Assembly: GCF_026210795.1 (NCBI RefSeq)
Contig: NC_089440.1
Location: forward strand, 806,001 to 870,000
Length of the DNA: 64,000 nt
Origin: Rhizophagus irregularis
Taxonomy: Eukaryota > Glomeromycota > Glomeromycetes > Glomerales > Glomeraceae
Direction of reading: 5' to 3'
Shown: positions 2,565 through 52,505 of the stretch, in pieces
Numbering within the stretch: position 1 is the stretch's first letter
Layout of the letters: each line of letters begins with the position of its first letter
Made by a program: the position numbers and the translations under genes
The notes under the pieces: model-generated
What the model saw: the letters and a program-made list of their open reading frames with translations, nothing else
What the model was told of the DNA's origin: nothing
Database searches by the model: none

Positions 2565-4057
2565 ATGTCTCTCGATTACTCTCAGGAAGTTATTGGCGAC
2601 TTGGAAAAAGTGCTTGAAACTAACGATGGATATGATGTTATTATCTACGCTGGTGAAAATGAAAATGTAAAAGAATTACGTGCACATTCAAGTATTTTAT
2701 GCATAAGGTCTAAATATTTTTGCACAGCATTTTCCAGAGTATGGGCCAATAAAAAAGATGGAAATTTTATTTTTGAAAAACCAAACATTTCTCCTCAAAT
2801 ATTTAAAATTATTTTAAGGTAACGTAAAATTATGAAAATTCAATGTTTAATGTTATATAATTTACATATATTTTTTAATTATCTAGATTTATTTATTGTG
2901 GAAAAATTGATTTAACAAAATTGTTGGGCCCCGAAATATTAGAGCTTTTGATGGCATTAGATGAACTTAACTTCCATTCATTAATCTCTCATGTTCAAGA
3001 ATACTTGATTAATAATCAAGATAAATTTTTGCAACAAAATCCTATTGAAATTCTTGAAGCAGTTTATCAACATGAATCATTCACAGATTTATGGAATTAT
3101 TGTCTTGAGAAGATTTGTGCGGAACCTGAAATGTTATTTAATTCTGATAATTTTATCAATTTAAAAGCGCCTTTATTGAAATTGATTTTAAAGCGAGATG
3201 ATTTGGTTTTAGACGAAATTGAAATTTGGAATAATCTATTAAAATGGGGTATTGCAAAAAATCCTTCTATTTCACAAGACATCACAAAATGGAGTAATGA
3301 GGATATTACAATTATTGAAAGGTCTCTTCATGGATTTATTCCATTAATAAGATTTTATCATATTTCATCTGATGATTTTTTTGATAAAATATATCCTTTA
3401 AAAGAATTACTACCAAAAGATTTATTTGATGAATTGGTGAAATTTAATATTGCACCAAATAGGAAACCAAATATTGACGAAATTCAACCTCCTAGAAAAC
3501 CAAAGTTCATTCATGATTCAACCATTTATGATTCAATTATAGTTAAATGTCAACATTTTGCTGTTTTTTCTAGTTGGATTGATAAGAAAGAAAATTTACA
3601 TTATAATGTAAGAAATATTCCTTATAAATTCAATTTACTTTATCGTGCTAGTAGAGATGGCAATGCACCCGCAGCATTTCATGCTAAATGTGATAACAAG
3701 GGACCCACCATAGTCATAGTAAAAATCTCAAATTCAGAAAAAATAGTTGGAGGGTATAATCCACTTTTTTGGAATTCAAGTAATCAAAATAGTTCTACGA
3801 ACGATAGTTATATATACTTATTTACTGATGGGAAAGATACAAAAAGTGCAAAAGTTAGTTACAGTAACGGTGATAATTATTCTATAAGAAATTTAGCTGT
3901 ATATGGACCGGCATTTGGTGGAGGCGACTTAATAGCATATCTAGATGGTAATAATTGGTACAGATGTTCAACAAATTCTTATCCTAAAATTGATGGTATT
4001 CCAACAGGATATTTCAAGGTAGATGATTACGAAGTTTTTCAAGTCATTAAAAAATAA
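2565..4057 (+). CDS. BTB-BACK-TLDc protein (gene 2), two exons, 474 aa
   Basis: Probable adaptor protein. Exon 1 is 2565-2818 and exon 2 is 2887-4057. The 68-bp intron begins GTAACG and ends ATCTAG, phase 2, joining FKIIL-R to FIYCGKIDL inside the BTB fold. Start chosen at the ATG after an A-run because every sister gene starts MS-[FL]-[DE]-Y. BTB spans about residues 1-120 (DVIIYAGENENVKEL, then RAHSSILCIRSKYFC), BACK about 127-240 (FLQQNPIEILEAVYQHESF), and TLDc about 300-472 (YRASRDGNAPAAFHAKCD, GGYNPLFWNSS, FGGGDLIAYLDG). BTB-BACK usually recruits substrates to Cullin-3; TLDc is linked to V-ATPase and stress functions. No membrane segment or signal peptide is visible, so it is probably cytosolic. 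Exon 1 is nearly identical to that of gene 3 at 28.3 kb. Confidence 0.9.
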
Positions 4058-7875: not shown

Positions 7876-8800
7876 TGTATTCTTAAACAAATATTGTCAA
7901 ATTACACAATCAATTTAACGTTACAAGAAAAAAAGTTCTTAAGTAAATTGAAATAACAGAAAAGTTAGTGCACGTATTTATATAACAAATTTATTGAAAA
8001 AATTGTTATACTCGTAAATCTAAGCATTTAACCGATATTCAGGAAGCGTTTCTACCTGATAACTCTATTACACAGGATCGTTATTTTCGTTAAAATATTA
8101 CTTAATTCTTTCTTATTGATAGTTAACCCATGTAATATTCCTTTATTCACCCCTGAATTTTCCTTTTTGATTATAATGTCCGTCTGTCCGTCCGGCACGT
8201 GACGTCGTGACGATGTAAGTGGTTAATTCTATTTTTATAGAACGAATCAATCAATAAGGCAAGGAAAGAAATGCTGTTTCCATGATGGTAGAGGCTTGTG
8301 GAGACATAATTTTATATATGTTGTTCTTCACTCATAAATTGTTATTACGTTTCGTTTATCTACGAGAGCACATCAAATACTGAAAAGGAACAATAAATTC
8401 TTGAATACTTCGGACTTAATAACGGTTTCCCATTTCCTAGTGTAATATACAATATAATTATATATTATTGGATAATAGCGCCGCATTAGACTATTATATA
8501 TAACTGATAATTACTCATATGAGTCATATCGGTCATATGAATAAAAGTTACTTACGTGATTACTCATGCAAATATGCAAATAATAATTTAAATAATATAA
8601 ATATGTCAGTTTTCTTCTTTGTTTTTTCTTTGTCTTCTTTTTTTAGGTCTTCTTTATCGGTCTGTTTTCTCTTTGCTTAGGTCTTCTTTTTATTCTTAGG
8701 CTCCTTTTCTTCACGTCTCCCTTTAGGTATGTGGGTTGTTGTGCGTAGGTTTGTGTATGGGTTTGTGTGTGGGTGTGTGGGTGGTGTGTATGTTTGTGTA
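7876..8800. other. Intergenic region
   Basis: No gene recognised. There is a GC-richer patch at 8178-8215 with GTCCGTCTGTCCGTCCGG and CACGTGACGTCGTGACG, which resembles transposon-end DNA but was not delimited. A G/T-rich stretch at 8728-8800 leads into the pyrimidine repeat. Confidence 0.4.
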
Positions 8801-8805
8801 TTTCT

Positions 8806-9466
8806 TTTCAGTTTCCCTTTCCCTTTCGTTTCCCTTTCCCTTTCGTTCTCCCCTTTCCCTTAGTTCTCCCTTTCCCTCTCGTATCCCCTTTCCTTCCCTC
8901 TCGTTTTCCTTTTCCTTCTCGTTCTCCCCCTTTCCCTTTCGTTTCCCCTTTCCCTCTCGTTCTCCCTTTCCCTTCCGGTTACCTTTCCCTTCCGTTCTCC
9001 CCTTTCTCTCTCGTATCCCCTTTCCTTGCCTCTCGTTTTCCTTTTCCTTCTCGTTCTCCCCTTTCCCTTTCGTTTCCCCTTTCCCTCTCGTTCTCCCCTT
9101 TCCCTTCCGGTTACCTTTCCCTTCCGTTCTCCCCTTTCCCTCTCGTATCCCCTTTCCTTCCCTCTCGTTTCCTTTTCCTTCTCGTTCTCCCCTTTCCCTC
9201 TCGTATCCCGTTTTTCCCTTTCCCTCTCGTTTTCCCCTTTCCCTTCCGTTCTCCCCTTTCCCTTTAGTTTCCCCTTTCCCTCTCGTTTCCCCTTTCCCCC
9301 TTGTTTTCCCCTTTCCCTCTCGTTTCCCCTTTCCCTCTCGTTCTCCCTTTTCCCTCTCGTTTTCCCCTTTCCCTCTCATTCTTTCCCCGTTCTCCCCATT
9401 CCTTCTCGTTTCCCCATTCCCTCTCGTTCTCCCCTTTCCCTTCCGTTTTCCCTTTCTCCCCTTCCC
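8806..9466 (+). repeat. Polypyrimidine minisatellite with 132-bp higher-order period
   Basis: About 660 bases of almost only C and T, built from units like CTCTCGTTCTCCCCTTTCCC (about 17-20 bp). A higher-order period of 132 bp is seen: the TCGTTTTCCTTTT block recurs at 8901, 9033 and (slightly shorter) 9165. Open frames exist on both strands only because stops cannot form. The minus strand is purine-only, with many G-runs. Such strand asymmetry favours triplex (H-DNA) and quadruplex structures. Confidence 0.9.
9289..9317 (-). other. Canonical G-quadruplex motif
   Basis: On the plus strand four C-runs (CCCC, CCCCC, CCCC, CCC) are separated by loops of 3, 7 and 3 bases. The minus strand therefore matches G3+ with loops of 1-7. 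Others in the array have loops of about 9. Confidence 0.7.
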
Positions 9467-11700
9467 CCCTGATCAATGTTGCTGCACCTCAACGTGGTGA
9501 TCAGGTGACAACAAGTTTTTTAAAAGACTTGGCTAAGTCAGCAACAAATAGTAATTAATATTACATAAGTCATAAATCGATTCGTTCATTTTATTAAATT
9601 GATTCATTATTTCATTTAAACATAAAAAATTAAATATATCAAATTATTTATTTAGTTAAGACTATTTGATTTGAATTATTGGGCAAAGTTTTTCCATAAT
9701 TACATTCTTAAGATTAGCACGTTGAAGAAATTTTTAACATTTAAGTTTAAACAATGATTTCTATATGTTTTAAAAAATCCTTTCAAACATATTCCTTTTT
9801 TTTTTGTAACACTGATAATCTGCTATTTTTTGTAATCAATTTTTTTTGTTTAGCGTTGTAATATTCATTAATTAAATACTTTGGTATACAATGTTTATCT
9901 GTTTCTTCTCATAAAATTAATAATTGCTTATACCATCAATAAAACTGGACTCTCGTACAGTACGTACAGTATCCGTATAATTCCGATTTACGCTCAAAGC
10001 TATAAAAAAAACTTAAACAAAGCAATGAATTAATTAATTTTAATCTTTAATTTTCAACAATAGTATGCATTTTTCATAACTATCTCTTTTCCCATTATAA
10101 TAATTTAAAATAAATAAATTAGTATCGGTTTTGATTTATCGAATACTTGTCTTGGCCAGATATAGTTAACCTATAACTATCTCTCTAGGAGTGAGTACCT
10201 TTATAACCAATTTATAATTAGGAAAAAAGCTGCTATAAAATAAAAAATGGGTTGGTTACTAAGAAAAAATTGAGTATACTTTCTTATCTGTGCATCTTCT
10301 GTTAAGTATATTACATTATAAATCCGTTACCTATGCAACGTGGAGAAAGAAATGACTTTTTTTAAAAGAATTGAATCGATACGTAAATAAGTAATTTTTA
10401 CATAAACTTTCTTATTTTTACCTATATAATCATATTTTATTTTTGACCAAGGATTAAACACAGGTTTCTCGGTTTTTATGTTAGTTTTAAGTATGTTTAA
10501 TATATGGAGGGTTGTACGAGAAGAGAAGTATTTTGCCTCACGAGTTTATCTAAATATCAATGTACTGACGCATGCATCTTATTCTTTGATATGTCAGTTT
10601 ACTATTTTTGGTATGATATATATTATAATAGTTAGCTGAATAGCCGTGTACTGATTTATTAGTAATTTTGAGATAAAAAAAAAAGATTTAGATTAATTTT
10701 AAAAAAAAATTCAAGACTTTTTGAATAATCACATTATTTAGTGGAGATTTACTCATCTTTTTTCTTTTAGTGGAAAGGTCTAATATGAACTATTTTAGTC
10801 ACATTACTCATCTTATATGTTTCTGTTCATGGCAACAACTAGTTTTTCTTCGGTTTGGTCTTCTTTGTCAGAATCCACATTTGCTATCAGCATTGTGTAT
10901 ATAACTTAATCCAAAAACTATTAATTATAATTCGCGTTAATTTTTTATATTAACTATTTAAAGTCTTAAACTTCATCGTTATATAACCTAATTTAATAAG
11001 TTTGCAAAGTCGATTTCGTATTACGATGTCAATTCAATTGATTCGATTCATAACTGTACTGGAAGCTATCGAATTCAAAATTATGAAGCACTTAATCTAT
11101 TAATCAATGAACAAAAAATTTTTACAATCGAATTTGATATTGTCATATTGCCGTAAAATCGTATTGATTTTTCATAAACGTAGGAGAATTTAAAAAAAAG
11201 TTTTGTTTTTAAAAAAAATCGCGTGCACATAATCAGGTGATCATCACGTTGTTTAAGGATCGTTCGCTACGTAGGTTAAAAGCTGCGACCAAAAGTCGCA
11301 TAATTCGAGTATATTGCCAAATAAAAATTCGACTTATTATTAATATAAATCTTAAAATATATTGTTTGTGTAATAAATTTATGTCGAGTTTTTACTGATA
11401 TAAAGTATCAAATGAAATGACTGAAGGCCCTGATTATGATTTGTTCATGAGCGAATTTTGTTTTTTCAAAGAATTAATATAGAGAAAACAGAAACTTCGA
11501 GAGTTGATTCATAAATTATGAAAAATTAATAATAATACATAAATCTTATTTTTATTTTATTTATTAAATTATAATTAGAAATGGAGAAAATTTAATAAAC
11601 AACAGCTTCAGCCTCATGTTCGATAAAGAATTAGCAGCTAATAGTAGCTAATGTTCTCATTTCTCAAACATAACTTAGATACATATGTGTTGAAAATTAA
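9467..11700. other. Long AT-rich region without a recognised gene
   Basis: No long open frame and no recognised domain. A diverged copy of the 1.6-kb repeat lies at about 11040-11180. The stretch from about 11420 to 11700 is homologous to the 3' flanks of the four-gene family farther right (TGATTATGATTTGTTCAT). Confidence 0.5.
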
Positions 11701-11998: not shown

Positions 11999-12804
11999 CT
12001 AAGTGTCAGGCACTTCAATAGGCTCAGTTATTTCAGTATTCTGAAAATTTTGACTAAGAGTAATTTTGATTTTGGCATTAGACCTAAAAAGAGAGAAATT
12101 ATTATTATTATATGATAAAGGTTGGGAATATTTCTAAGCTTGAAAATGCATACTTGTTATCAATAATTCCAGTGACAATAAAATCATGTCTATTATCATG
12201 ATACTTAACGGTTTTATTTGGACAAGTACTACCAGTACTACCTCTGTGCAATTCTTTAAGTAAACTTTTGTCCAGTGATGGAAATTCCTCATATTCACGA
12301 ACATTGATATTTATTGAGTTTTCCCCGGATAATTTTACCTACAAGTGTGAATAATGCATGATCAAACATTTCTTAAACGTACATCATTCGATAGCTGAAT
12401 ATTAAGTAATTACTTACTTTCCAAGTAACTATAAGGTACAGAGGATTTGAGTTTGATCCTCTTTGCCCTATTATCTTATATGATATTATTCCTCTTGAAT
12501 CCTGACCCGAACCAGCGGTGAATTCTCTGTGTATTAAAAATTTTATTGTCACATAAACTCTTTTATTTATTACAAAACATACAGATTATTCTTACGTTGA
12601 ATCGGAAATTTCTCCTGGGTTTATGACTGTGTCTGGTGGATTTTTTACTTCTCCAGGTGAAAAAATCTTAGGTTCAGTAAGTATCAAATTTTGATGTTTA
12701 TTTTTAATGGTAAGTGTTGCACTTATTTTAACGAGCTTATCATGAAGGTAAGCGATTAATACCATGAAGACGTTTTTGGTAGTCTGAAGTTCAACGTTAT
12801 TCAT
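11999..12804 (-). CDS. Small beta-rich protein, actinoporin/cytolysin-like (copy A), 195 aa
   Basis: Four exons on the minus strand: 12804-12596, 12526-12418, 12338-12154 and 12083-11999. All introns are GT-AG and the joined frame is open. Exon 1 gives SATLTIKNKHQNLILTEP, then a P-D-T-V-I-N-P-G stretch. Exon 2 gives SYKIIGQ and PLYLIVTWK. Exon 3 gives VKLSGENSININVREY, and exon 4 gives SNAKIKITLSQ. The order (strand rich in T/I/V, P-T-I-x-P-G turn, LYLIVTWKV, closing x-G-x-I-D-N ... A-x-I-x-V strand) recalls the cytolysin/actinoporin beta-sandwich. That is pattern recognition, not a search result. No clear signal peptide is seen. It is the most divergent of four paralogs, and its last exon is longer than the others. 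Confidence 0.6.
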
Positions 12805-12993
12805 TATTATTATTTATTTGCGTAATTCTGATATAGCTAGATTAATTTTTTTTTCACTCGGAAAAGAAGGATAGTTTTTTTTTATTCGAAAGTTATTTTT
12901 CACTCGAATTCTTGGAAGAAAAGGATGAGAAGGTCACTATTTTTTACTCAGAAGAAAGGTACATTTATATACTTATTAATCATTGTCCTAATT

Positions 12994-15154
12994 AAAACAC
13001 TAAAAGATTTGTTGGTTGCCGATCGTACTAAAATAGAAAAGCTTGATTTGAAATGTATTTATATAATCAGCAAATCAATACCAAAGATGGGGGATCAGCA
13101 TCTTAAAATGGAAATCACTCAAAAACTAATCTTATGTTAACGTTAAGTTAACGTTAACCTATCATGACATGTCAATCATTTCAAGTCATGACAATAACGT
13201 GACGCGCCACCCACCCACCCATAGGGTGATATTGCACTTATATAGAATGATCTTTCTTGCTTAAAAATTATGGGATAAAATTTTTAGCAAATCATGTCAA
13301 AACTGAATAATTTTTTTGTTAGCCAAAAATGATCAACAACCGGATGACAAATTTTAATATTATGTAAATAAACAATTTGTTTGTATTACTTATTTAAATA
13401 TAGATACATTTTTTTTTTATTTTGAACCAAAAAATAAACAATAATCAAATGGTAAATTTTCATTATCGTCGTCATTACATTATCGTTATAATTAAAGTTG
13501 CCTGCCGAAATTAGGGAGTTTTGGCATGTCAAAATTGTCAAAACTATTTTGACATGTCAAAATTGTCGAAACCTAAAAATATTACGTTTCACGTAATAAC
13601 TCGGCGTCCAATGATCGTAGAAAGATGCACCATAGCTCGTTGGAATCGTCTCATAACGACGAGTCGAATGGTGGTTAGATCGTCTTTCTACGATCACTGG
13701 ATGCCGAGATATTGAGCGAAACGTCAAAAATCGGCATTTTGTATTTTGCGCTACTGCGCCGTTTGACGTTTCGTCTATTATCTCGGCATCCAATGATCGT
13801 AGAAAGATGATTTAACCACTATTCGAATCGTCGTTATGAGACGATTCCAACGAGCTATGGTGCATCTTTCTACGATCATTGGACGCCGAGTTATTAAGTG
13901 AAACGTCAAATGGCGCAGTATCGTAAAATACAAAATGCCGATTTTTGACGTTTCGCTCAATATCTCGGCATCCAGTGATCGTAGAAAGACGATCTAACCA
14001 CCATTCGACTCGTCGTTATGAGACGATTCCAACGAGCTATGGTGCATCTTTCTACGATCATTGGATGCCGAGTTATTACGTGAAACGTAATATTTTTAGG
14101 TTTCGACAATTTTGACATGTCGAAACTATTTCGGCATTTCGGCATTTCTACAGGTTTTAGTTTCGACATTTCGACAATAGCCTGTAGAGTTTTGGCAGGC
14201 AACTTTAGTTATAATGCTATCATGAAAATTTTTTCAGGGTAGTAATTCTAAAAATGATTAACAATCGGATAATATAATTGTTGTTTTATTATAATGTTAT
14301 CATAAAATTTTTTTTTCTCAACAATTGGATGATAAAATTTAAATAAATGTTATATCAAGTAATTTTTTATTTTGAAACAAAACAATAAACAACAACCAAA
14401 TGGTAAAATTTCATTATCATTGTCTTATTAGTATTATGATGTTCAATTATCGTAATTTTTCCAGAACTAAAAATGATCAACAATCGGATAGTAGAATTGT
14501 TTTATTACAATGTAATCGTGAAAAATTTTTTTCCAGAGCCATAATTCCAAAAATGATGATAGTAAATTTTAAATGATGCTTTATCAAGTAATAAACAATC
14601 TTTCTGTATTATTATTTAAAGTTAATCACATATTCTGATATATATATTTTTTTATTTTTGAACCAAAAAATAAACAACAATCAAGATAATTAACCTTAAA
14701 ATGATTAACAAGTGAAATAACTAAGCCAAAAATGATTAACAAGCAAAATAAACCGAAAATGATCATCCTTTACCAAATGAGAAAAAAATTATGTTAATAG
14801 CTAGTTAAGAGTAATTTTCTCAATTTTTTTATAGATATGTTAAATATAATCAAAAATTTTGCAAATAAAGTGAAAGTTATGGTTTGGCTAGAAAAACCCG
14901 GCGAGCGAAGCGAGCCAAATGAAATTGCATCATCATAATAAATCACATGAATATTTAATACACAATCACATGATCTACCAGTAATTTTTCCACCAGTTAA
15001 AATTTAGAAATTCTCTTTAAATCTTAAAAACTATTTATCATAATTATGATACTGTATGGTAGTATAAATCAACTTAATTAAAAAAAAAGTCAGAATTATT
15101 ACAGTTCTAATTATACTATGACTATAGCTCCCTGCCATGTTTAATGTTAACTTG
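12994..15154. mobile_element. Composite 2.2-kb insertion in the copy A flank
   Basis: In copies B, C and D the upstream flank reads continuously from CATTGTC[CT]TAATT to CTAAATTAAGG. In copy A these two halves lie at about 12980-12993 and 15155-15167, so everything between was inserted, or was lost from the others. The insert holds the nested fold-back element (13494-14206). On both sides of it are diverged direct repeats of the type AAAATGATCAACAATCGGAT and AAATAAACAACAATCAA (13320-13460, 14250-14600, 14650-14700). I saw no transposase frame. Confidence 0.65.
13494..14206. mobile_element. Nested fold-back element, TIR AAAGTTGCCTGCC
   Basis: The outer inverted ends are AAAGTTGCCTGCC (13494-13506) and its complement (14194-14206). 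An imperfect extension into TTATAA-TTA lies on each side. Inside are three 107-bp units at 13601-13707 (+), 13783-13889 (-) and 13965-14071 (-), spaced exactly 182 bp apart. Each unit is itself bounded by inverted copies of TCGGCRTCCARTGATCGTAG. The two 75-bp linkers between units are inverse copies of each other, so the whole element is close to a giant palindrome centred near 13836. Short open frames here are by-products. It is a non-autonomous DNA element; the superfamily is not clear. Confidence 0.8.
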
Positions 15155-15327
15155 TTCTAAATTAAGGAAATCCGATATTAGGCGCAGATACAAGAAATTA
15201 AAACAAGTTTAATAACCATTTCACTATATATTACCATATTTTGCTATTTTTAAAAGCCCGATAATAAGCACCCCGGCCTGCGTTATGGAGATTTGATCAG
15301 AATTATGGGGACCTTTTGTACGGAAAT

Positions 15328-15429
15328 CACTCATTCAGGTGATCATCAAAGGTTATAAACTTAACTATTCTTACTATTTATGTCACAAGTGTATAGGTAA
15401 AAACCTTTGATGATCACCTGAGTGTGGTG
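15328..15429. mobile_element. 102-bp MITE with 8-bp target duplication (hAT-like)
   Basis: The inverted ends carry CAGGTGATCATCAAAGGTT (left) and its complement (right). The element is flanked by direct ACGGAAAT at 15320-15327 and 15430-15437. The corresponding flank of copy D has no such element. An 8-bp duplication is the hallmark of hAT transposons, and the inner palindrome is perfect over about 19 bases. Confidence 0.75.
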
Positions 15430-15476
15430 ACGGAAATTTAAATGAAGATGTACAATAAACATCAATTATCCACTTC

Positions 15477-15487
15477 TATAAATAAGG
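15477..15487 (+). promoter_or_regulatory. TATA box in unit A (TATAAATAAGG)
   Basis: A conserved TATA box, followed in all four units by ACTTTCATTTTTCAACCTTACA and TTCCGAAA. It faces away from the minus-strand gene. No open frame follows. Confidence 0.5.
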
Positions 15488-16004
15488 AAGATCACTTTCA
15501 TTTTTCAACCTTACATGGCTCTTCCGAAAATATGATAACCATGTTCACTATTCCTTTCTTAGTTAGATTTGTTTGAAGAATTCAAAGCCATTAAACATTA
15601 AGTGCTAAATTTCACAATAACGTGTAAATTATAGACCCGGATGGAAATTTAAATAAAGTGTAATGAAAGTAAATTACCAATCGGAATTAATTTAACAGCT
15701 AAAAGTGAAATAGGGGAAAAATTGGGAGAAAATAGAAAGAATGAAAAAAAAAAGAATAGTTATGTTTGATATCTTTTCTCAGAAGGAAATTGGAAAAACA
15801 TCTCGATCAATAAGATTAATGAGCATAACAGTTTTTTTTTTTTTTTTGAGCAAGATGGTATTCCTTCCTTCATTAAAAAATTTACGTAAGACCACAAATA
15901 TACAATAATAAAAACCAATTAAAAAGCGACTTTAAAACATTCGAATCAATTTCAAAATTCCTATTTAAAATTTGCACCATTATTTGCACATAAAAAATAT
16001 GGTA

Positions 16005-16526
16005 TCCGGACTTTTCGCCGAAGTCCATTTCACCAAAACCTATTTCGCCGAAGCAATTTTGCCTCACCAAAGTGCCATTTCGTCGAAATACCATTTCCCG
16101 AATAGTCATTTTACTGAATGGCCATTTTGCAGAAGGACATTTTACCGAAGCCATTTCGGCGAAGGGATATTCCGAAGATATGGAATTTTTAATTTTCCTT
16201 TTCTTTTATTGAAGGTAAACAAATCATTTACACATTATATTAAGTCACGTTTGTCTATTTTTTTTTAATTAAAGATAACTAGTTTTATTAGACAAATTTA
16301 ATGTACTCATCAATTTTCCAAAACAAGTAAAAATAAAATAGTTTAAAGAAAATTTGTTCTTTGAACATTTTTTATTTTTTTTGTATCGAATTGTTAAATA
16401 TTTTCGGTAAAATACCTTTGATAGAATGGATGATTCGGGGAAAAGGGTTCGGCGAAATGTCTATTTGAAGAAATGTCATTTGACGAAATAGTCCTTCGAC
16501 GAAATGGCTTTGGCGTAACGGATTTC
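16005..16526. mobile_element. Fold-back element with TTTCGCCGAA-type arms (FB1)
   Basis: The left arm (16005-16170) is a run of degenerate units such as CATTTCGCCGAAG and CATTTCACCGAAT. The right arm (about 16400-16526) carries the same units in inverse (CTTCGACGAAATGG). The ends TCCGGACTTTTCGCCG and its inverse are imperfect. The interior is AT-rich and non-coding. It is a non-autonomous element with tandemly repeated arms. Confidence 0.7.
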
Positions 16527-17754
16527 TCCAAATATAATTATTCTTTTTTTTTTCAAGCATAGATTTACTTTTGTTTTTTATTATTATAATTCCAATTGAA
16601 TATTATTTTTAAAATTGTATAAGATCCAATAAGGTTCAAAGTTTTTTTGTAGCATTTTTTATACTGCATACTGACTGTAATTACAGTACGTGATGGAATT
16701 ATTAATTTTGAATATATTGTTATCAAGTTAAAGTGTAGACATATACAGTAAAACCATTTTATGAATATCGTAGTGAATTTAACCGAGTCAATCATGCTCC
16801 ATCATTTATATATAATAATTTGAATAAAATTTTTAAAATAAATGAACGATTGACGCATAATTTTTTTTACGTCATTGTATAGTTGGAGACACAACAAATC
16901 ATCAAGTTGTTTCAAATTGAGATTTTAAAAAATCACATGATATATATAACACTAATTTGCGATTGGTTAAAAATCAAACCATATTGGGAAATGTTTTACT
17001 TTATTAATCATCAATATTTTCAAAAATAAAATCTGGAACAAATCGTTCACAGCTTTTTTTCTTTTTTTAGCTATTTTTTGACAGTGTTGTGCTTGTCTCT
17101 TTAGTCATGCCATAAGAAAAAATTCTATGATCTACATTACCTCTCAACCAGTCATAGTTCTGGCTTAAATTATAGAATTTTGTCAAATTCTGGCCAAAAT
17201 TAGATGTTTCAAATCCTACCGTTTATTAAGAAAATACCGAACTTTACAGGCTAATAACTTTTGATCTAGATTACCAATCAGGATAATCTCAACGTCATTT
17301 TGTAGTTTAAGTTAGTAACAATTAAACTATGTTGAGTTATTTTAAATATATGCATCCAAAATATTTTTATTAAATTTCTAATTGGACAATTTTATTTGAT
17401 GAATTGTTGTGTCCCAAACCGTAGATCTTTGTATAAATAAAAAAGAATGGAATATCTAAAGAGCTCCTTTTGTGCTAAAAGAAATATGTATTTTCTAACT
17501 TATGATTGAGATCGACTGTCATGATTAATTACATGTTCGCTTACATGTGATCTATTTCACGCAATCAAATTTGAGCTGAGCTTTTACTCGATTAAATAAA
17601 TTTTAATTTTAACCTTTTTTTTGAAGGAAAATCTCATGATGAAAATTATCCTTTATAGGATGATGAACATTACACTACCTTAAAAGAATCTAGTCGCAAT
17701 GGGTGCATTATTGTGTAAAAGTTTCCATGTGCATTGTAAATTTGTAATGGTTAC
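16527..17754. other. AT-rich intergenic region
   Basis: No gene or clear repeat recognised between the two fold-back elements. Confidence 0.4.
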
Positions 17755-18164
17755 GGTACGTTTCGCCTAAGTCCATTTCGCCGGAGGCCTTTTCGAAGCA
17801 ATTTCATCGAAAGGATGGGACATTTCGTTGAATGGAAATTTCGTTGAATGGACATTTGCTAAATCCTTTTTTTCCGAATCATCCATTTCACCGAAATCTA
17901 CCTCACCGAATAGGACATTCCGCCAAAAATGTTAGCGATTTAATACCCAATTTTTTATTAATAAATGTTAAACTATAAACCGAAATAAACATTATCAACA
18001 ATGTTTTTTGTAAAAAAATTTTCGTAAATGGATATTTTGGAAAAATATAATTTGAAATTTTGGTGAAATGGCTTCGGCAAAAAGTCCTTCGGCGAAATGT
18101 CCATTCGGTGAAATGTCTATTCGATGAAATGTTGCTTCGGTGAAATGTCCTTCGGCGAAATATA
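17755..18164. mobile_element. Fold-back element with TTTCGCCGAA-type arms (FB2)
   Basis: A second member of the FB1 family. The left arm is 17755-17930 (TTTCGCCTAAGTCCATTTCG and following units). The right arm, about 18060-18164, is inverse (TCCTTCGGCGAAATG repeats). The interior of about 130 bp is AT-rich. Confidence 0.7.
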
Positions 18165-19306
18165 CTTCTGATCAGTATTTGTCAAATTAATGGTTTCTTT
18201 TGGTAGATCACGTAGAGAATACTAGGATCAGCCCACAAAATTACTAAGTAGTGAATACTGACCGTTTAGGTTTAAAAAATACGCAAATGCAGTATAAAAA
18301 TTCAACTTGTTATAAGGTTTAGAACATATTGCTTGTGTAAAATTTATACCGCGTTCTTTTTGTACGTAATAATAGAATTGCGATGAGATTATTTTTTAAA
18401 ATTATTTTTTATTTGTCATAGTTAATAGTATAATTAAACAATCAATGTTCTTTTTCTTTCTTTAAACTAATATGAATACATGTATTTCGAATAAGAATAA
18501 ACCAAATATAATACATGATTACCTTTTCTTTCCTTCCCTCTATTGCCAGTAATTAGTAATTTTTATTGTAAATTTTTTCTAATACTAGTAGATTTTTACT
18601 TTTTTTTATTCCTTCTTACTTTTTAGTGTTAATAAAATTTAATTTTTACATAAAAATCTAGTCACGTTAAGACAACCTGGATTGTGCATCGTGATTCGTT
18701 CATTAGCGAACATTTTTCATTTTTTTTTCAAAGGATTAATATAATATATAGGAGACAGATTACGAAAAGTTAATTCAAATGATAATAATAAATGAAATAA
18801 TTTTATTAGGTTTTTTTTTTATAAAAATTAAATTTATGATGATGAAAGCTTAATAACCAACGACTTTAACTTTATGTTTGTTTCAATTCAAAATGATTAA
18901 AAGTTAAATTTAACCTCACAAGTGAATGCAAGCTAGTATTCTTGATATAAAAATTATTTTATTTTAACAACTTAAGTATACTATATATATTTATCGTTCA
19001 GCTCAATAGGCCGATATTCTTATTAGGCATAACAATAATACATGATTGATATAATAAAGTGGAGTAAAAAAATGTTATGAGTGAATATTTTATAGGAAAA
19101 GCTTAAATAAAGCTTTATAAAGTGGATTAAAAATAGCATAAAAATGAAAGCTTATTTATGATGTTATAATTAATGCATGATCAAAAACGCCAAACTTTTA
19201 TTGGATGTGGGATGTGGGGCTGTATCGGTCCTGTGACCGACATAGCTACTCCCCCATCCAATATATATACTGTCTGTACATATATGTTGCATAATTAAAC
19301 AAATGT
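18165..19306. other. 3' flank of tandem unit B
   Basis: No gene. From about 18360 onward the sequence is a diverged version of the 3' flanks at 21320-22050 and 24250-25170 (TGAAATTATTTTTTAAATTT, then AAGCTTAATA-ACAACAGCTT-like). It therefore belongs to the tandem-duplicated unit. Confidence 0.55.
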
Positions 19307-20125
19307 TTAATAACCTCGTAATAATTGTTGATCAAAACTAACTTTGATTGTTGCGTTAGACCTAAAATAAACAGAAATTATTATATTAGATAAAGGTTGG
19401 AAAATGGAAATACTTTTAAGGTTTATACATACATATTATCAATTGTTCCTCTGGCAATAAAAAAAGAACTGTCATCATCCCACTTAGCAGTTCCACCTGG
19501 ATAAATCCTATTTTCTTTTTTATGCAACTCCTTGAATAAAAAATATTTTTCTTCAGGGGTCTTATTTTCGAGTGGTGGTGATTGATAATCACGTACATTA
19601 ATACATATTGAATTTTCCCCAGCTATTAATTTTACCTATAAGTGCGAATAATAATCAAATATTGCTTAAACGGCTTAAACGTACAGTACATATTCAATAT
19701 AATAACTAAAAGCAATAAAAAATTACTTACTTTCCATGTAACTATAAGGTATAGAGGGTCCCAATTTGGTCCGGTTTGGCCAATTATCTTATATGATATC
19801 ATTCCTTGCGAAGTGAACCTTCCAAGTTTAGAGACGAATTTTCTATATTAATAAAAAGTTTATTACCATATGCATACTTATTTTTTACTACAAAAACCTA
19901 CAGTTATACTTACGATGAATTCGGTGTTTGTCCTGGGGTAATGGTTGGATTCAGTGGATTATTCATTTCTCCAGGTGCGAAGACATCAGGATCAGTAAGT
20001 TTCATCTCTTGATGATTGTTACTAATGGTAACTGTTGCCATTGTTTTAAAACCTACGAATCTTCTTACAAAATGCTGCATATAGAGCAACAATATTTTAG
20101 CATGTGCAATAGTAGCAACCTCCAT
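19307..20125 (-). CDS. Small beta-rich protein, actinoporin/cytolysin-like (copy B), 193 aa
   Basis: Exons on the minus strand: 20125-19914, 19842-19731, 19635-19433 and 19361-19307. Introns are GT-AG with the same phases as copies A and D (2, 0, 2). Exon 1 carries MATVTISNNHQEMKLTDP and PLNPTITPGQT. Exon 2 carries SYKIIGQTGPNWDPLYLIV. Exon 3 starts VKLIAGENSICINVRDY and ends GGTAKWDD ... ARGTIDN. Exon 4 carries the closing strand SNATIKVSFD. The first ATG at 20125 is used, but an internal Met (MQHFV) lines up better with copy D and may be the real start. The pattern fits an actinoporin/cytolysin fold only at motif level. Membrane binding or pore formation is possible but unproven. Confidence 0.65.
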
Positions 20126-22051
20126 TTTTGTTATTTTAATCTGTGATTTTCTAAGTTCCGTCAGAGAGAAGGATACTTTTTTTTTACTCGAAGAGAATGA
20201 TTTTTTTTTTACTTGGAAAAAAAGGATATATATTTATAATTATTAATCATTGTCTTAATTCTAAATTAAGGAATTCCGATATTAGGCGCAGATAAAAGAA
20301 ATTAAAACAAGTTTAATAACCATTTCACAATATCTTACCGTACTTTGCTATTATTAATAAGATACACTTACATCAATTACATTTTTTTTTTCATTTCTAT
20401 AAATAGGGGAGATGTACAGCACTTTCATTTTTCAACCTTACACAGCTACTTCCGAAATATGGTAATCATCTTGCTATTCCTTTTTTAGATAAGTTCTGCT
20501 TTAAGAATGTAAAACCATTAAACAATAGCCGCCGCATTTTGTAAACTATAGCTCCGAATGGAAATTTAAAGAAAGTGTGGCGGAAGCAAACTTAAACCAA
20601 AATTGTTTAATTTAATAGCTAACAATGAGATAAAGGAAAAAAGAATGAAAGAAAAGTATGATTATTTTTTGGTGAGTATCTTTTCTAAGATAAGCTGAAA
20701 ATTATCTCAATAAGATTAATGAACATATTAATTTTCCTGAATAATAAATTTTTTACCTTATGGGATTTGTAGCATGCTCGATCATTGACAGGAATTTAAT
20801 CGATTAATTATTAATATATAAAGTAGTTATTGTCTATATTGTATATAATAATAATTAAATAAATTTTTATGTTAGAATAAATGAATGAATGGCACGTTCA
20901 TCCGTTCACGTCCCTTGTAACATAGGTTTGTAATTTAAATATAATTTATTTCTTTCACGTAATTGTAGATCTTTGTCTAAATTTTGTGGCTGAAAAAAAG
21001 GAGAATGAAACATTTTAAGATCCTCTTTTTTGTTAAAAGAAATAGGAAATACTACAATTTAAATATATTAACCGATTTAAGTAAACATTCGACTCAAGAT
21101 TATGGTAAGATCGTGTGATGATCATCATTTACATGTGATCTATTAAACGTGATCATAGTTTATTAGTATATTTGAACACAATTACTAGATAGTTAACACT
21201 GACCACCGTTTAGGTTAAAAAAATGCGGCCAAAGTCAGTATAATGTAAAATTTAGAACATGATATTGCTTGTTTAAAACATTTATGATGTGATAAAACCA
21301 AATGAAATAGTTGAAGATCTTGCGTAATAATATAATTGCCATGAAATTATTTTTTAAATTTATTTTATCATAGACTCGTTTAAGAATATTTTTTTTTATA
21401 TATATTTATTTCCGGGAATTAGTTAATAAAATTACCATTTATTACATACCATTATACCATAGAACCGATCAATAATTACTACACTTCTATTATAATACGT
21501 CTAGTACAATTTGATCACTCCTATTTTCCATATGTTGTTTTTTTATAATTTGAATTTTCTTTTCATTGTAAATGTTTAATAAATTTATTTTGAACAAGAA
21601 TGAATCTAAATACGATATTGGTCAATGACTGCCTACCCTCTTAGTTAGCAATTATTACTTTTTATTTTAACTTTTTTATCCTTTTTTACTTTTTAGCGTT
21701 AGTAAAATTAAATTTTGCATACAAGTCGATCGTGCAATGATTATGATTTATTCATTAGCGAACTTTTATTTTCTTCAAAGAATTATATATAGGAAACAGA
21801 GATTTCATAAATTACAAAAAAATGATAATAATCAAATACTTAATTTTTATTGGAAATTCGTTTTTTTATAAAACTATATTTATGGATGATGAAAGCTTAA
21901 TAAACAACAGCTTGACGTTATGGTTCACTTCAAAATAATAAAGGTTAAATTAACCTTACTAGTGAAGCTTAACTTTTATACTATACATATATGTTGAAAC
22001 TTAAAAATAAATAATAATCAACCATCCATTAAAACATATTTGGGGTAATAG
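20126..22051. other. Upstream region of copy B and 3' flank of copy C
   Basis: No open reading frame of note. 20126-21370 is nearly identical to 22858-24310, so this is part of a tandem segmental duplication. It includes a conserved TATA box at 20398. 21380-22051 is nearly identical to 24300-25170. Confidence 0.6.
20398..20409 (+). promoter_or_regulatory. TATA box in unit B (TATAAATAGGGG)
   Basis: A textbook TATA box 273 bp upstream of the copy B start, pointing to the right. The conserved downstream stretch (CTTTCATTTTTCAACCTTAC) would fit a transcription start about 25-30 bases later. The complement, read leftward, could also serve copy B, so the direction is open. Confidence 0.55.
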
Positions 22052-22857
22052 CTAATTTTTTTGATCAAAACTAACTTTGATTGTTGCGTCAGACCTAAAA
22101 TAAACAGAAATTATTATATTAGATAAAGGTTGGAAATACTTTTAAGGTTTATACAATAACACATGCATACATATTATCAATTGTTCCTTTGACAATAAAG
22201 ATAGATCCGTCATCTTCCCACATAGCAGTTCCACCTGGATAAATCCTATTTTCTTTTTTATGCAACTCCTTGAATAAATAATATTTTTCTTCAGAGGTCT
22301 TATTTTCGAGTGGTGGTGATTGATATTCACGTACATTAATACATATTGAATTTTCCCCAGCTATTAATTTTACCTATAAGTGCGAATAATAATCAAATAT
22401 TGCTTAAACGGCTTAAACGTACATATTCAATATAATAACTAAAAGCAATAAAAAATTACTTACTTTCCATGTAACTATAAGGTATAGAGGGTCCCAATTT
22501 GGTCCGGTTTGGCCAATTATCTTATATGATATCATTCCTTGCGAAGTGAACCTTCCAAGTTTAGAGACGAATTTTTTATATTAATAAAAAGTTTATTACC
22601 ATATGCATACTATTTTTTACTACAAAAACCTACAGTTATACTTACGATGAATTCGGTGTTTGTCCTGGGGTAATGGTTGGATTCAGTGGATTATTCATTT
22701 CTCCAGGTGCGAAGACATCAGGATCAGTAAGTTTCATCTCTTGATGATTGTTACTAATGGTAACTGTTGTCATTGTTTTAAAACCTACGAATCTTCTTAC
22801 AAAATGCTGCATATAGAGCAGCAATATTTTAGCATGTGCAATAGTAGCAACCTCCAT
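22052..22857 (-). CDS. Small beta-rich protein, copy C, splice acceptor of intron 1 lost
   Basis: Exons predicted by alignment to copy B: 22857-22646, 22575-22464, 22373-22171 and 22094-22052. Together they would give 189 aa. It is almost identical to copy B in exon 1 (one visible change, A to T before the TVTISNN motif). The 3' splice site of intron 1 is altered. Copy B reads AATATAG before the exon, whereas copy C reads AATATAA, a C-to-T change on the plus strand at 22576. Retaining the intron gives TCG then TAA at once. The gene may be dead or may use another AG. The last exon is shortened to SDATIKVSFDQKN, as in copy D. Confidence 0.55.
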
Positions 22858-23129
22858 TTTTGTTATTTTAATCTGTGATTTTCTAAGTTCCGTCAGAGAG
22901 AAGGATACTTTTTTTTTACTCGAAGAGAATGATTTTTTTTTTACTTAGAAAAAAAGGATATATATTTATAATTATTAATCATTGTCTTAATTCTAAATTA
23001 AGGAATTCCGATATTAGGCGCAGAAAAAAGAAATTAAAACAAGTTTAATAACCATTTCACAATATATTACCGTACTTTGCTATTATTAATAAGATACACT
23101 TACATCAATTACATTTTTTTTTTCATTTC

Positions 23130-23141
23130 TATAAATAGGGG
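23130..23141 (+). promoter_or_regulatory. TATA box in unit C (TATAAATAGGGG)
   Basis: Same element and same downstream block as in unit B, at an equivalent distance from the copy C start. Confidence 0.55.
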
Positions 23142-24429
23142 AGATGTACAGCACTTTCATTTTTCAACCTTACACAGCTACTTCCGAAATATAGTAATCA
23201 TCTTGCTATTCCTTTTTTAGTTAAGTTCTGCTTTAAGAATGTAAAACCATTAAACAATAGCCGCCGCATTTTGTAAACTATAGCTCCGAATGGAAATTTA
23301 AAGAAAGTGTGGCGAAAGCAAACTTAAACCAAAATTGTTTAATTTAATAGCTAACAATGAGATAAAGGATAAAAGAATGAAAGAAAAGTATGATTATTTT
23401 TGGTGAGTATCTTTTCTAAGATAAGCTGAAATCATCTCAATAAGATTAATGAACATATTAATTTTCCTGAATAATATATTTTTTACCTTATGGGATTTGT
23501 AGCATGCTCGATCATTGACAGGAATTTAATCGATTAATTATTAATATATAAAGTAGTTATTGTCTATATTGTATATAATAATAATTAAATAAATTTTTAT
23601 GTTAGAATAAATGAATGAATGGCACGTTCATCCGTTCACGTCCCTTGTAACATAAGTTTGTAATTTAAATATAATTTATTTCTTTCACGTAATTGTAGAT
23701 CTTTGTATAAATTTTGTGGCTGAAAAAAAGGAGAATGAAACATTTTAAGATCTTTTTTGTTAAAAGAAATAGGAAATACTACAATTTAAATATATTAACC
23801 GATTTAAGTAAACATTTGGCTCAAAATTATGGTAAGATCGTGTGAGATCATCATTTATATGTGATATATTTGAATTTTTAAAAATAAATAAAAATATCTT
23901 TTTATGAAACTATCTTTTATAGGATGATAAATATTCCACTATCCCTTAAAAGGAAAGAATCTAGTGAAACCGATTCTGTCTGTCCCGTAATAGGCCAATG
24001 AAAATGCATTACTGTGTATAAGTTTCCGCGTACAGGTGATCAGGTGATTAATATTTCAAAACTAATGGTTTCCTTTGGTAGGCCATTAGGATCAAGCCAA
24101 ACACAATTACTAGATAGTTAACGCTGACCACCGTTTAGGTTAAAAAAATGCGGCCAAAGACAGTATAATGTAAAATTTAGAACATGATATTGCTTGTTTA
24201 AAACATTTATGATGTGATAAAACCAAATGAAATAGTTGAAGATCTTGCGTATTAATATAATTGCCGTGAAATTATTTTTTAAATTTATTTTATCATAGAC
24301 TCGTTTAAGAATATTTTTTTTTATATTTATTTCCCTTAAATATTAATGTTTAATATTATAACTTTTTTTGTATATATTGGTGCGCTACGGGCATTAGTTA
24401 ATAAAATTACCATTTATTACATACCATTA

Positions 24430-24556
24430 CCCTATAAAAAATTTTTATCCGAATATTTCCATTATTTCTCCGTGTCTTCCGTAAAAATTCCGTGAAAATG
24501 ATACATTCACGGAAAGAACATGGAAAGATAAAACACGGATCAGATTTTTTACAGGG
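24430..24556. mobile_element. 127-bp MITE, TIR CCCTRTAAAAAAT, TSD TTA
   Basis: The ends are CCCTATAAAAAAT and the complement of CCCTGTAAAAAAT, flanked by TTA on each side. The paralogous site in the preceding unit (about 21450) is empty and reads ACCATTATACCATAG, which proves insertion. The same termini bound the larger elements at 32.6 and 53.4 kb. Confidence 0.85.
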
Positions 24557-25176
24557 TTATACCATAGAACCGATCAATAATTACTACACTTCTATTATAA
24601 TACGTCTAGTACAATTTGATCACTCCTATTTTCCATATGGAAATTTGATTTGTTTTTCCATAATTTGAATTTCTTTTCATTGTAAATGATTTAATAAATT
24701 TATTTTGAACAAGAATTAATCTAAATACGATATTGATCAATGACTGCCTTTCTTTCCTACCTTCTTATTTTAACTTTTTTATCCTTTTTTTACTTTTTAG
24801 CGTTAGTAAAATTTAATTTTACATACAAGTCGATCCACAATATGACAACCCCTGATCGCGCAATGATTATGATTTGTTCATTAGCGAACTTTTATTTTTC
24901 TTCAAAGAATTATATATAGGAAACAGAGATTTTATAAATTATAAAAAAATGATAATAATCAAATATTTAATTTTTATTAGAAATTCGTTTTTTTATAAAA
25001 CTATATTTATGGATGATGAAAGCTTAATAAACAACAGCTTGACTTTATGGTTCACTTCAAAATAATAAAGGTTAAATTAGCCTTACTAGTGAAGCTTAAC
25101 CTTTTATACTATACATATATGTTGAAACTTAAAAATAAATAATAATCAACCATTTAAAACATATTTGGGGTAATAC

Positions 25177-25941
25177 CTAATTTTTTTGATCAAAACTAAC
25201 TTTGATTGTTGCATCAGACCTAAAATAAACAGAAATTATTATATAAGATAAAGGTTGGAAATACTTTTAAGGTTTATACAATAACACATGCATACATATT
25301 ATCTATTGTTCTTCTGACAATAAAGATAGATCCGTCATCTTCCCACATAGCAGTTCCACCTGGATAAATCCTATTTTCTTTTTTATGCAACTCTTTAAAT
25401 AAATAATATTTTTCTTCAGGGGTCTTATTATCGAGTGGTGGTGATTGATATTCACGGACATTGATACATATTGAATTTTCCCCGGCTATTAATTTTACCT
25501 ACAAGTGCAAATAATAATCAAATATTTCTTAAACGTACAATATTCAATGAAATAATTATAAATAAAAGTTTACTAATTACTTACTTTCCATGTAATTATA
25601 AGATATAAAGGATTCCAATTTGGTCCCATTTGGCCTACTATCTTATATGATATCATTCCTTGCGAAGTGAAATTACCAAGTTTAGCGATGAAATTTCTAT
25701 ATTATTAAAAAGATTATTATTACATGTAATCTTATCTATTATGAAAACTTGCAGCTACTTACGATGAATTTGGTGTTTGTCCTGGGGTAATGGTCGGGTC
25801 CAACGGATTTCTCATATCTCCAGGTGAGAAATTGGCAGGATTTGTAAGTTGCATATCGTGATGATTGTTACTAATGGTAACTGATGCCCTTGTTTTAAAA
25901 CCTATGAAACTTGTTACAAATTGCTGCATGTAAGTGAGCAT
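25177..25941 (-). CDS. Small beta-rich protein, actinoporin/cytolysin-like (copy D), 178 aa
   Basis: Exons on the minus strand: 25941-25763, 25696-25585, 25498-25296 and 25219-25177, all GT-AG and in phase. It starts MLTYMQQFVTSFIGF, so it lacks the first residues of copies B and C. Exon 1 continues ASVTISNNHHDMQLTNP and PLDPTITPGQT. Exon 2 gives ISYKIVGQMGPNWNPLYLI, and exon 3 ends GTAMWEDDGSIFIVRRTID. Exon 4 gives SDATIKVSFDQKN. It is intact as far as can be seen and is the rightmost member of the tandem set. Functional assignment is the same tentative one as for copy B. Confidence 0.65.
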
Positions 25942-28340: not shown

Positions 28341-29829
28341 ATGTCTTTCGATTACTCTCAGGAAGTTATTGGCGACTTGGAAAAAGTGCTTGAAACTAAC
28401 GATGGATATGATGTTATTATCTACGCTGGTGAAAATAAAAATGTAAAAGAATTACGTGCACATTCAAGTATTTTATGTATAAGGTCTAAATATTTTTGCA
28501 CAGCATTTTCTAAAGTATGGGCCAATAAAAAAGATGGAAAATTTATTTTTGAAAAACCAAACATTTCTCCTCAAATATTTAAAATTATTTTAAGGTAACG
28601 TAAAATTATGAAATTTAATGTTTTAATGTTTATAATTTATATATATTTTTTAATTATTTAGATTTATTTATTGTGGAAGAATTGATTTAACAAAATTGCT
28701 GGGCCCCGAAATATTAGAGCTTTTGATGGCATTAGATGAACTTAACTTTCATTCACTAATCCCTCATGTTCAAGAATACTTGATTTATCATCAAGATGAA
28801 TTTTTGCAACAAAATCCTATTGAAATTCTTGAAACAGTTTATCAACATGAATCATTCACAGATTTATGGAATTATTGTCTTGAGAGGATTTGTGAAGAAC
28901 CTGAAATGTTATTTAATTCTGATAATTTTATCAATTTAAAAGCGCCTTTATTGAAATTGATTCTAAAGCGTGATGACTTGGCTTTAGATGAAATTGAAAT
29001 TTGGAATAATCTATTAAAATGGGGTATTGCAAAAAATCCTTCTATTTCACAAGACATCACAAAATGGCGTAAGGAGGATATTACAATTATTGAGAGGTCT
29101 CTTCATGGATTTATTCCATTAATAAGATTTTATCATATTTCATCTGATGATTTTCTTGATAAAATATATCCTTTAAAAGAATTACTACCAAAAGATTATG
29201 CTGATGAATTGGTGAAATTTAATATTGCACCAAATAGGAAGCAAAATATTGACGAAATTCAACCTCCTAGAATATCAAAACCTATTTGTGATTATGATTC
29301 AATTTTAATTAAGAATCATCATTTTGCTGTTTTTGCTAGTTGGATTGATAAGAAAAATAATTTACGTTATAATGTAAGAAATATTCCTTATAAATTCAAT
29401 TTACTTTATCGTGCTAGTAGAGATGGTAATGCACCTGCAGCATTTCATGCTAAATGTGATAATAAAGGAGCTACTATTGTTATTGCAAAAATTAAAAATT
29501 CAGAACAAATAGTTGGAGGATATAATCCACTTCAATGGGATTCAAGTGGATTATGGCATTCCACATTTGATAGTTTCATATATTTTTTTGCAGATGTGAA
29601 AAATATAGTAACTGCAAAAGTAAGTTATAGTAATGGCAATAAATATTCTATAGGAAATAATCCGAGTTATGCACCATTATTTGGTGGTGGTTGGGATTTA
29701 TACCATGATGGAAATGGTGTTTGGCATAGTAATAATAATCGAAATAATTCTTATCCTAGAATTGATGGTATGCCAAGGAGGGAATTTAATGTAAATGATT
29801 GTGAAATATTTCAAGTAATTAAAAAATAA
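28341..29829 (+). CDS. BTB-BACK-TLDc protein (gene 3), two exons, 473 aa
   Basis: Exon 1 is 28341-28594 and exon 2 is 28662-29829, with a 67-bp GTAACG...TTTAG intron at the conserved phase-2 site. BTB occupies residues 1-120, nearly identical to gene 2 (MSFDYSQEVIGDLEKVLET). BACK is about 127-240, and TLDc about 300-471 (DSSGLWHSTFDSFIYFFAD, FGGGWDLYHDGNGVWHSN). The TLDc half of this gene (29365-29654) is almost identical in DNA to gene 5 at 56956-57245. The N-terminal halves differ far more, pointing to conversion or recombination. Role as for gene 2: probable Cullin-3-type adaptor with a TLDc effector end. Confidence 0.9.
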
Positions 29830-37460: not shown

Positions 37461-38942
37461 ATGTCTCTTGAATATTTTCAAGATCTTTCTAATGACTTGG
37501 AAAAGTTACTTACAACTGAAAAGGGATATGATGTCATTATCTACGTTGGAGAAAATGAAAATATAAAAGAATTTCATGCTCATTCGAATATTTTATGTAC
37601 AAGGTCGCAGTATTTTTGTACAGCGTTCTCCAATAAAAAAGATGGAAAATTTATTTTTGAAAAATCAAATATTTCTCCTCAAATATTTAAAATTATTTTA
37701 AGGTAACGTAAAATTATGAAAATTTAATGTTTAACGTTTAATGTTATATAATTTACATATATTTTTTAATTAACTAGATTTATTTATTGTGGAAAAATTG
37801 ATTTAACAAAATTGTTGGGCCCCGAAGTATTAGATCTTTTGATGGCATTAGATGAACTTAACTTCAATTCGTTAATCCCTCATGTTCAAAAATACTTGAT
37901 TAATCATCAAGATAAATTTTTGAAACAAAATCCTATTGAAATTCTTGAAACAGTTTATCAACATGAATCATTCACAGATTTATGGAATTATTGTCTTGAG
38001 AAGATTTGTGAAGAACCCGAAATTTTATTTAATTCTGATAATTTTATCAATTTAAAAGCTCCTTTATTAAAATTGATTCTAAAGCGAGATGACTTGGTTT
38101 TAGATGAAATTGAAATTTGGAATAATCTATTAAAATGGGGTATTGCAAAGAATCCTTCTATTTCACTAGACATCACAAAATGGAGCAATGAGGATATTAC
38201 AATTATTGAGAGGTCTCTTCATGGATTTATTCCATTAATAAGATTTTATCATATTTCGTCTGATGATTTTCTTGATAAAATATATCCTTTAAAAGAATTA
38301 CTACCAAAAGATTTAGCTGATGATTTGGTGAAATTTAATATTGCACGAAATAGGAAACCAAATATTGATGAAATTCAACCTCCTAGAAGCATAAAGCCTA
38401 TTTATGATTCAATTTTAATTAGAAATCGTCATTTTGCTGTTTTCGCTAGTTGGATCAATAAGAAAGAAAATTTACATTATAATAATGTGAGGAATATTCC
38501 TTATAAATTCAATCTACTTTATCGTGCTAGTAGAGATGGTAATACACCTGCAGTATTTCATGCTAAATGTGATAATAAAGGAGCTACTATTGTTGTTGCG
38601 AAAATTGAAAATTCAGAACAAATAGTTGGGGGATATAATCCACTTTATTGGAATTCAAGTAATTGTAATATGTCCATAATTGATAGTTTTATATATTTTT
38701 TTGCAGATAAAAATAACTATGAAACTGCAAAAGTAAGTTATAGTAATGGTAATGAGTATTCTATAAGAAATTACTCTGGATATGGACCAATGTTTGGTGG
38801 TGGTAACGATTTAATTTATAGCAGCGATGGTATGTGGTATTGTAATAGAGGTATTTATAGTTCTTATCATAAAATCGATGGTATGCCAACAGGAGGATTT
38901 AATGTAAATGATTACGAAGTTTTTCAAGTAATCGAAAAATAA
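37461..38942 (+). CDS. BTB-BACK-TLDc protein (gene 4), two exons, 468 aa
   Basis: Exon 1 is 37461-37702 and exon 2 is 37778-38942. The 75-bp intron is GTAACG...AACTAG, phase 2. BTB begins MSLEYFQDLSNDLEKLLTTE. Compared with the sister genes, a 12-bp in-frame deletion removes E-W-A-N (CTAATGAATGGGCCAATAAA became CCAATAAA), so the BTB loop is four residues shorter. BACK contains FLKQNPIEILETVYQHESF. TLDc contains YRASRDGNTPAVFHAKCD, DSFIYFFADKNNYE and FGGGNDLIYSS. No defect otherwise seen. Its 5' flank is shared with the broken copy at 5.9 kb. Predicted role as for gene 2. Confidence 0.9.
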
Positions 38943-50204: not shown

Positions 50205-50210
50205 TAAGAT

Positions 50211-52403: not shown

Positions 52404-52505
52404 ACCGTTATATTTAACGAAATAAAATAATTATGAGAATATCGAAAAGAATTTTTCTAAGTTTTTCTTTGTAAAAAAAACGAAATGAAGGAACGGGAGA
52501 GAGTT

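Follow-up and report, generated by a model that had tools for sequence, protein, structure and literature searches.

Tandem Genes of the Cluster

The window analyzed here, a 64,000-nucleotide stretch of Rhizophagus irregularis contig NC_089440.1 (positions 806,001 to 870,000, forward strand), carries four paralogous minus-strand genes, designated copies A–D, which span positions 11999-25941 exactly, with the stop codon of A ending at 11999 and the start codon of D at 25941. Their products, small proteins of 178–195 residues, are members of a divergent new branch of actinoporin-like proteins, referred to below as the window branch. Each gene consists of four short exons separated by introns of 66–95 nt with GT donors (Table 1). 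The intron phases, 2, 0 and 2, were read directly for B and D, and were derived from exon lengths for A and for a fifth copy, E. The exon joins of A–D were consistent with the database proteins P0012, P0008, P0010 and P0009, respectively, in agreement with the original prediction, made from the letters alone, of four minus-strand paralogs sharing a four-exon layout and these phases, except that one acceptor is shifted in copy C. Copy B shares its start methionine with the annotated R. clarus protein P0006, and the start of copy D lies 11 residues downstream of that of B, resulting in a shorter N-terminus.

In P0010, the database protein of copy C, exon 2 begins 24 nt downstream of the usual acceptor, in frame, and the protein is 8 residues shorter for it. 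Copy C is also a hybrid of its neighbors: its upstream sites resemble B and its downstream sites resemble D, with the switch falling within exon 3. Unequal exchange between members of a tandem array would produce such a pattern and may have taken place here. Copy E (192 aa) is located on the same contig (C12:380195-381014), at a distance of about 437 kb from copy A. When the whole 146.7 Mb genome was searched at the protein level, the window branch was placed at a minimum of five sites (A–E), with weaker matches on contigs C24 and C7; this copy number is a lower bound, because the own-genome searches score best candidates only.

The loss of the usual acceptor in copy C, the shortened N-terminus of copy D and a ratio of nonsynonymous to synonymous substitution rates (dN/dS) of 1.07 for the B–C pair, which has few differences, could be explained if these genes were decaying, functionless paralogs of an old actinoporin-like gene. 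However, dN/dS was 0.30–0.70 in the other nine of the ten pairs among A–E, and 0.42–0.70 among A, B, D and E, a pattern that, at the sequence level, indicates conservation beyond chance. Full-length relatives are also present in R. clarus and R. diaphanus, those of R. clarus bearing near-consecutive locus tags. We regard decay as a very unlikely account of the cluster.

Two repeat structures were observed between copies A and B: an inverted repeat at 13533-14139, composed of two 277-nt arms with 94% complementarity and a 53 nt spacer, and a region at 16020-18177 in which a short TTCGGCGAAATGTCC-like unit recurs in degenerate form and in either orientation.

Table 1. Coordinates and properties of the four tandem genes and of two features of copy C.
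Feature	Position	Strand	Product and exons	Remarks
Copy A	11999..12804	-	195 aa; exons 12596-12804, 12418-12526, 12154-12338, 11999-12083	192/195 residues identical to P0012
Copy B	19307..20125	-	193 aa; exons 19914-20125, 19731-19842, 19433-19635, 19307-19361	186/193 residues identical to P0008
Copy C	22052..22857	-	181 aa as annotated; exons 22646-22857, 22464-22551 (shifted acceptor), 22171-22373, 22052-22094	identical to P0010 (OCT59_003743)
Copy D	25177..25941	-	178 aa; exons 25763-25941, 25585-25696, 25296-25498, 25177-25219	identical to P0009 (OCT59_003744, R. irregularis)
Usual intron-1 acceptor position in copy C	22576..22577	-		AA in C, AG in B and D
Switch zone of copy C	22220..22330	-		B-like sites upstream, D-like sites downstream

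Relatives and Phylogeny

Searches of 5.8 billion proteins, whose reach is limited to relatives sharing short exact words, identified two related groups. Two such searches yielded the window branch itself, comprising 14 protein clusters from R. irregularis, R. diaphanus, R. clarus and Glomus cerebriforme. A search with a gene on C7 yielded a sister group of 13 proteins (P0015-P0027) from Rhizophagus, Glomus cerebriforme, Gigaspora and Dentiscutata. In the sister-group genes inspected by eye, the first and third introns match those of the window branch in position and phase, which is an independent sign of common descent of the two groups. Within the sister group, one gene on C7 has an altered intron-1 donor as compared with its neighbor, and in this assembly the gene on C24 loses its reading frame toward the end; intact relatives are found in the database.

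Alignments were prepared for 13 members of the window branch (A4, without P0005), for the sister group (A6, without P0025) and for both groups jointly (A5). Partial proteins, near-duplicates and proteins with odd ends (P0003, P0005, P0010, P0011, P0014, P0020, P0022 and P0025) were excluded from A5, from A8 and from the tree. The tree covered 25 proteins. In it, the nine rows of the window branch and the six rows of open reading frames (ORFs) of the same genome matching the actinoporin family PF06369 were each set off by a branch with 100/100 support. The 10 sister-group rows did not form one clade (two changes), and long branches were flagged. Since the sister group was not recovered as a clade, the window branch could be nested inside it, and the order of branching is unsure because of the long branches.

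Homology to Actinoporins and Predicted Fold

The original prediction proposed an actinoporin-like fold from motif order, naming PF06369, PF06355 and PF07367 for comparison. Direct comparison with these families failed: copies A, B, D and E matched no Pfam family at E <= 10, these three included, and PF06369 matched none of the 13 members of A4, among them copy C (P0010). The only Pfam matches of A4 members were two weak ones to other families, each found in a single member (E 0.043 and 0.064). The PF06369 search itself worked on the positive control, an own-genome ORF on C10, at 97.9 bits. The sole match of copy E in a single-sequence PDB search was a bacterial sulfite oxidase (E 0.071), which we read as chance.

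A connection emerged through the sister group. Its profile aligned with that of the window branch (A4 to A6; hhalign 98.7%, E 2.6e-16), and the sister group aligned with the own-genome PF06369 ORFs (hhalign 92.8%, E 4e-7), with a score of 48.4, the highest among 30 shuffles being 20.7. Against the moss actinoporin bryoporin (7pud), the sister-group profile (A6) gave an E-value of 5.2e-7 and the joint profile (A5) one of 5.4e-9; bryoporin is identical at nine of the eleven invariant residues of the joint alignment, as counted by eye on the printed alignment. These sequence data support homology of the window branch to a proven actinoporin, only together with or via the sister group.

Structure prediction pointed to the same family. 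The better model shows an N-terminal helix, an actinoporin beta-sandwich and a second helix near the C-terminus, and its structural alignments with actinoporins have 8–18% identity. An actinoporin fold of the window-branch proteins is supported at the level of modeling, less strongly when the window branch is taken alone. A first model gave weak matches to viral capsid, C2-domain and other proteins, mostly at low probability, and none of these came near the actinoporins among the matches listed for the better model. The predicted structure was a beta-sandwich, as anticipated, and no unrelated family reached a confident score. The fold proposed from motif order gained support from the predicted structure and from the profiles via intermediates; the cytolysin function suggested with it stays conjectural, with most of the known membrane-recognition residues missing, as described next.

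Membrane-Recognition Loop and N-Terminal Helix

In the available text of PMC9526159, the counterparts of the sphingomyelin site in bryoporin include Phe105, Tyr107, Tyr110 and Trp113, and in that of PMC8778704 a P-[WYF]-D motif is named. In HMMER alignments, these site residues and this motif fall on the segment that follows W-K-V in the window branch. The segment is present in 13 of the 14 window-branch proteins, 12 of which have no Phe, Trp or Tyr in it and one of which has a single Phe; W-K-V-K is likewise found in 13/14. The six PF06369 ORFs each have two to five aromatic residues in the loop, one of them being the Trp set as the end of the search pattern. The P-[WYF]-D motif occurs in none of the 14 proteins and none of the five copies; this does not distinguish the window branch, however, as the loop carries the motif in just one of the six PF06369 ORFs. 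As judged from the alignments, these proteins have retained the scaffold but lost the portion of the headgroup grip that resides in the loop; the portion contributed by helix 2 falls in a weak stretch of the alignment. An RGD-type oligomerization motif was found in 0/14 window-branch proteins and also in 0/6 PF06369 ORFs (exon pieces).

The N-terminal helix was predicted at low confidence. The amphipathicity of the N-termini of A–D was within the range of shuffled sequences (103–187 of 500 shuffles as high), and the hydrophobic moment exceeded that of the shuffles in E, P0003 and P0006 (2 to 23 of 500 as high) and in the PF06369 ORF on C10 (2 of 500). The stretch assessed was the default of 28 residues in most rows, which for D includes part of the first strand.

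These results bear on the possibility that the proteins are functional pore formers working in the manner of classical actinoporins, in which a membrane lipid is bound and the N-terminal helix becomes part of an oligomeric pore. The loss of the loop aromatics, an amphipathicity of A–D within the shuffled range and the N-terminus of D, which is 11 residues shorter than that of B and whose helix has a predicted local distance difference test (pLDDT) score below 50, speak against such an activity, which we consider unlikely.

Other Features of the Window

Four related TLDc ORFs lie on the plus strand of the window (2879-4054, 28654-29826, 37770-38939 and 56251-57408), three of which also match BACK; a BTB domain ORF (55817-56188) is located just upstream of the last. 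The minus strand at 44526-52430 contains a pair of long ORFs resembling a non-LTR retrotransposon; the longer (1895 aa) carries reverse transcriptase and endonuclease domains, the shorter (739 aa) a weak RRM match. The segments 8723-9500 and 42660-43754 are repetitive, with long ORFs on one or both strands, and are probably tandem repeats rather than genes.

Discussion

The four genes probably arose by tandem expansion within a branch of actinoporin-like proteins confined to the Rhizophagus group, which shares descent with actinoporins through the Glomeromycotina sister group. The products are most likely actinoporin-fold binding proteins with a changed lipid or glycan target and a role in defense or stress, an explanation that we favor and hold to be fairly probable. 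The beta-sandwich may still dock on a membrane or surface ligand, presumably by means other than the usual phosphocholine grip, because a conserved W-K-V-K...N-S has taken the place of the loop bearing the aromatic cluster. The suggested role in defense or stress follows proposals made both for bryoporin of moss and for fungal proteins related by fold. Fungal lectins of the actinoporin fold are often cytosolic defense proteins. According to the available text of PMC9526159, target-cell recognition has been proposed for fungal proteins of this fold, and bryoporin is upregulated by stress and by fungal infection.

Several observations weigh against this explanation. By itself, the window branch fails to connect by sequence to PF06369 or to the actinoporins in the PDB, so that homology rests on intermediates and predicted structure: its profile had no matches in the PDB, and its alignment with the six own-genome PF06369 ORFs (hhalign 1.3%, E 0.041) scored 19.1 as compared to a shuffled maximum of 18.1 (30 shuffles), which is not significant. 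Modeling of the window branch alone returned no Foldseek match at E <= 0.001, and pLDDT values were 33–60 in four of its five models. The loop varies in the sister group, seven of the 11 proteins with the segment having at least one Phe, Trp or Tyr and four having none, and the N-terminal amphipathicity of A–D, as noted above, did not exceed chance.

Two other readings concern the ligand. The proteins may be lectin-like binders without pore activity, comparable to the fungal fruit-body lectins of the same fold, targeting glycans of grazers or microbes; we view this as rather doubtful. A bolder hypothesis, which we offer tentatively as possible but less than probable, is that Glomeromycotina have their own old radiation of the actinoporin fold, in which the conserved W-K-V-K...N-S surface of the window branch replaces the phosphocholine grip and recognizes another ligand, such as a lipid or glycan of plant or fungal origin encountered during symbiosis. 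The radiation would then predate, or be independent of, the plant-to-fungus transfer reported for a PF06369 protein of R. irregularis.

With the window branch, the actinoporin fold, as predicted, extends to fungal proteins that are invisible to Pfam and tied to known actinoporins by intermediate sequences. The window branch also provides a natural set of proteins with a rebuilt lipid-recognition loop. Such a set would allow tests of which region of the fold determines the ligand, and of whether proteins of this kind serve obligate plant symbionts in defense or root contact.

Comparison with Known Actinoporin-Fold Proteins

The original prediction held that no such gene set was known in arbuscular mycorrhizal fungi, which is too strong. 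Six PF06369 loci exist elsewhere in the same genome, one of which, on C19, has a single in-frame TAG inside the matched stretch. As far as the available parts of the papers go, actinoporin-like proteins have already been reported in glomeromycetes (PMC8778704), as has a PF06369 xenolog of R. irregularis acquired by plant-to-fungus transfer (PMC11291939). The window branch is therefore no first discovery of actinoporin relatives in these fungi, classic ones having been known before. In the accessible portions of the literature on fungal and mycorrhizal actinoporin-like proteins, the protein tables in the supplement of PMC8778704 apart, the window branch is not described, and the locus tags of the cluster had no literature match.

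As far as these sources extend, the glomeromycete proteins of PMC8778704 and the xenolog of PMC11291939 have the fungal group and the fold family in common with the window branch. Unlike PF06369-type glomeromycete proteins, the window branch stands on its own 100/100 branch, is undetected by PF06369 and lacks the aromatic loop. The predicted overall fold is like that of the PF06369 actinoporins equinatoxin II, sticholysin II, FraC and Fav, in contrast to the low identity in structural alignments, the lack of a Pfam match here and the loop without aromatics in 12/13 window-branch proteins. Nakanori, the fungal fruit-body lectins and the aegerolysins (ostreolysin and pleurotolysin A) scored below the crystal and cryo-EM actinoporins and gave no sequence match. 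Bryoporin keeps the four aromatic residues of its site, as given in the available text of PMC9526159, whereas the aligned positions are non-aromatic in the window branch. The sister group, although alike in profile, differs from the window branch in having W-K-V-P in 8/13 proteins and in occurring in Gigasporaceae too.
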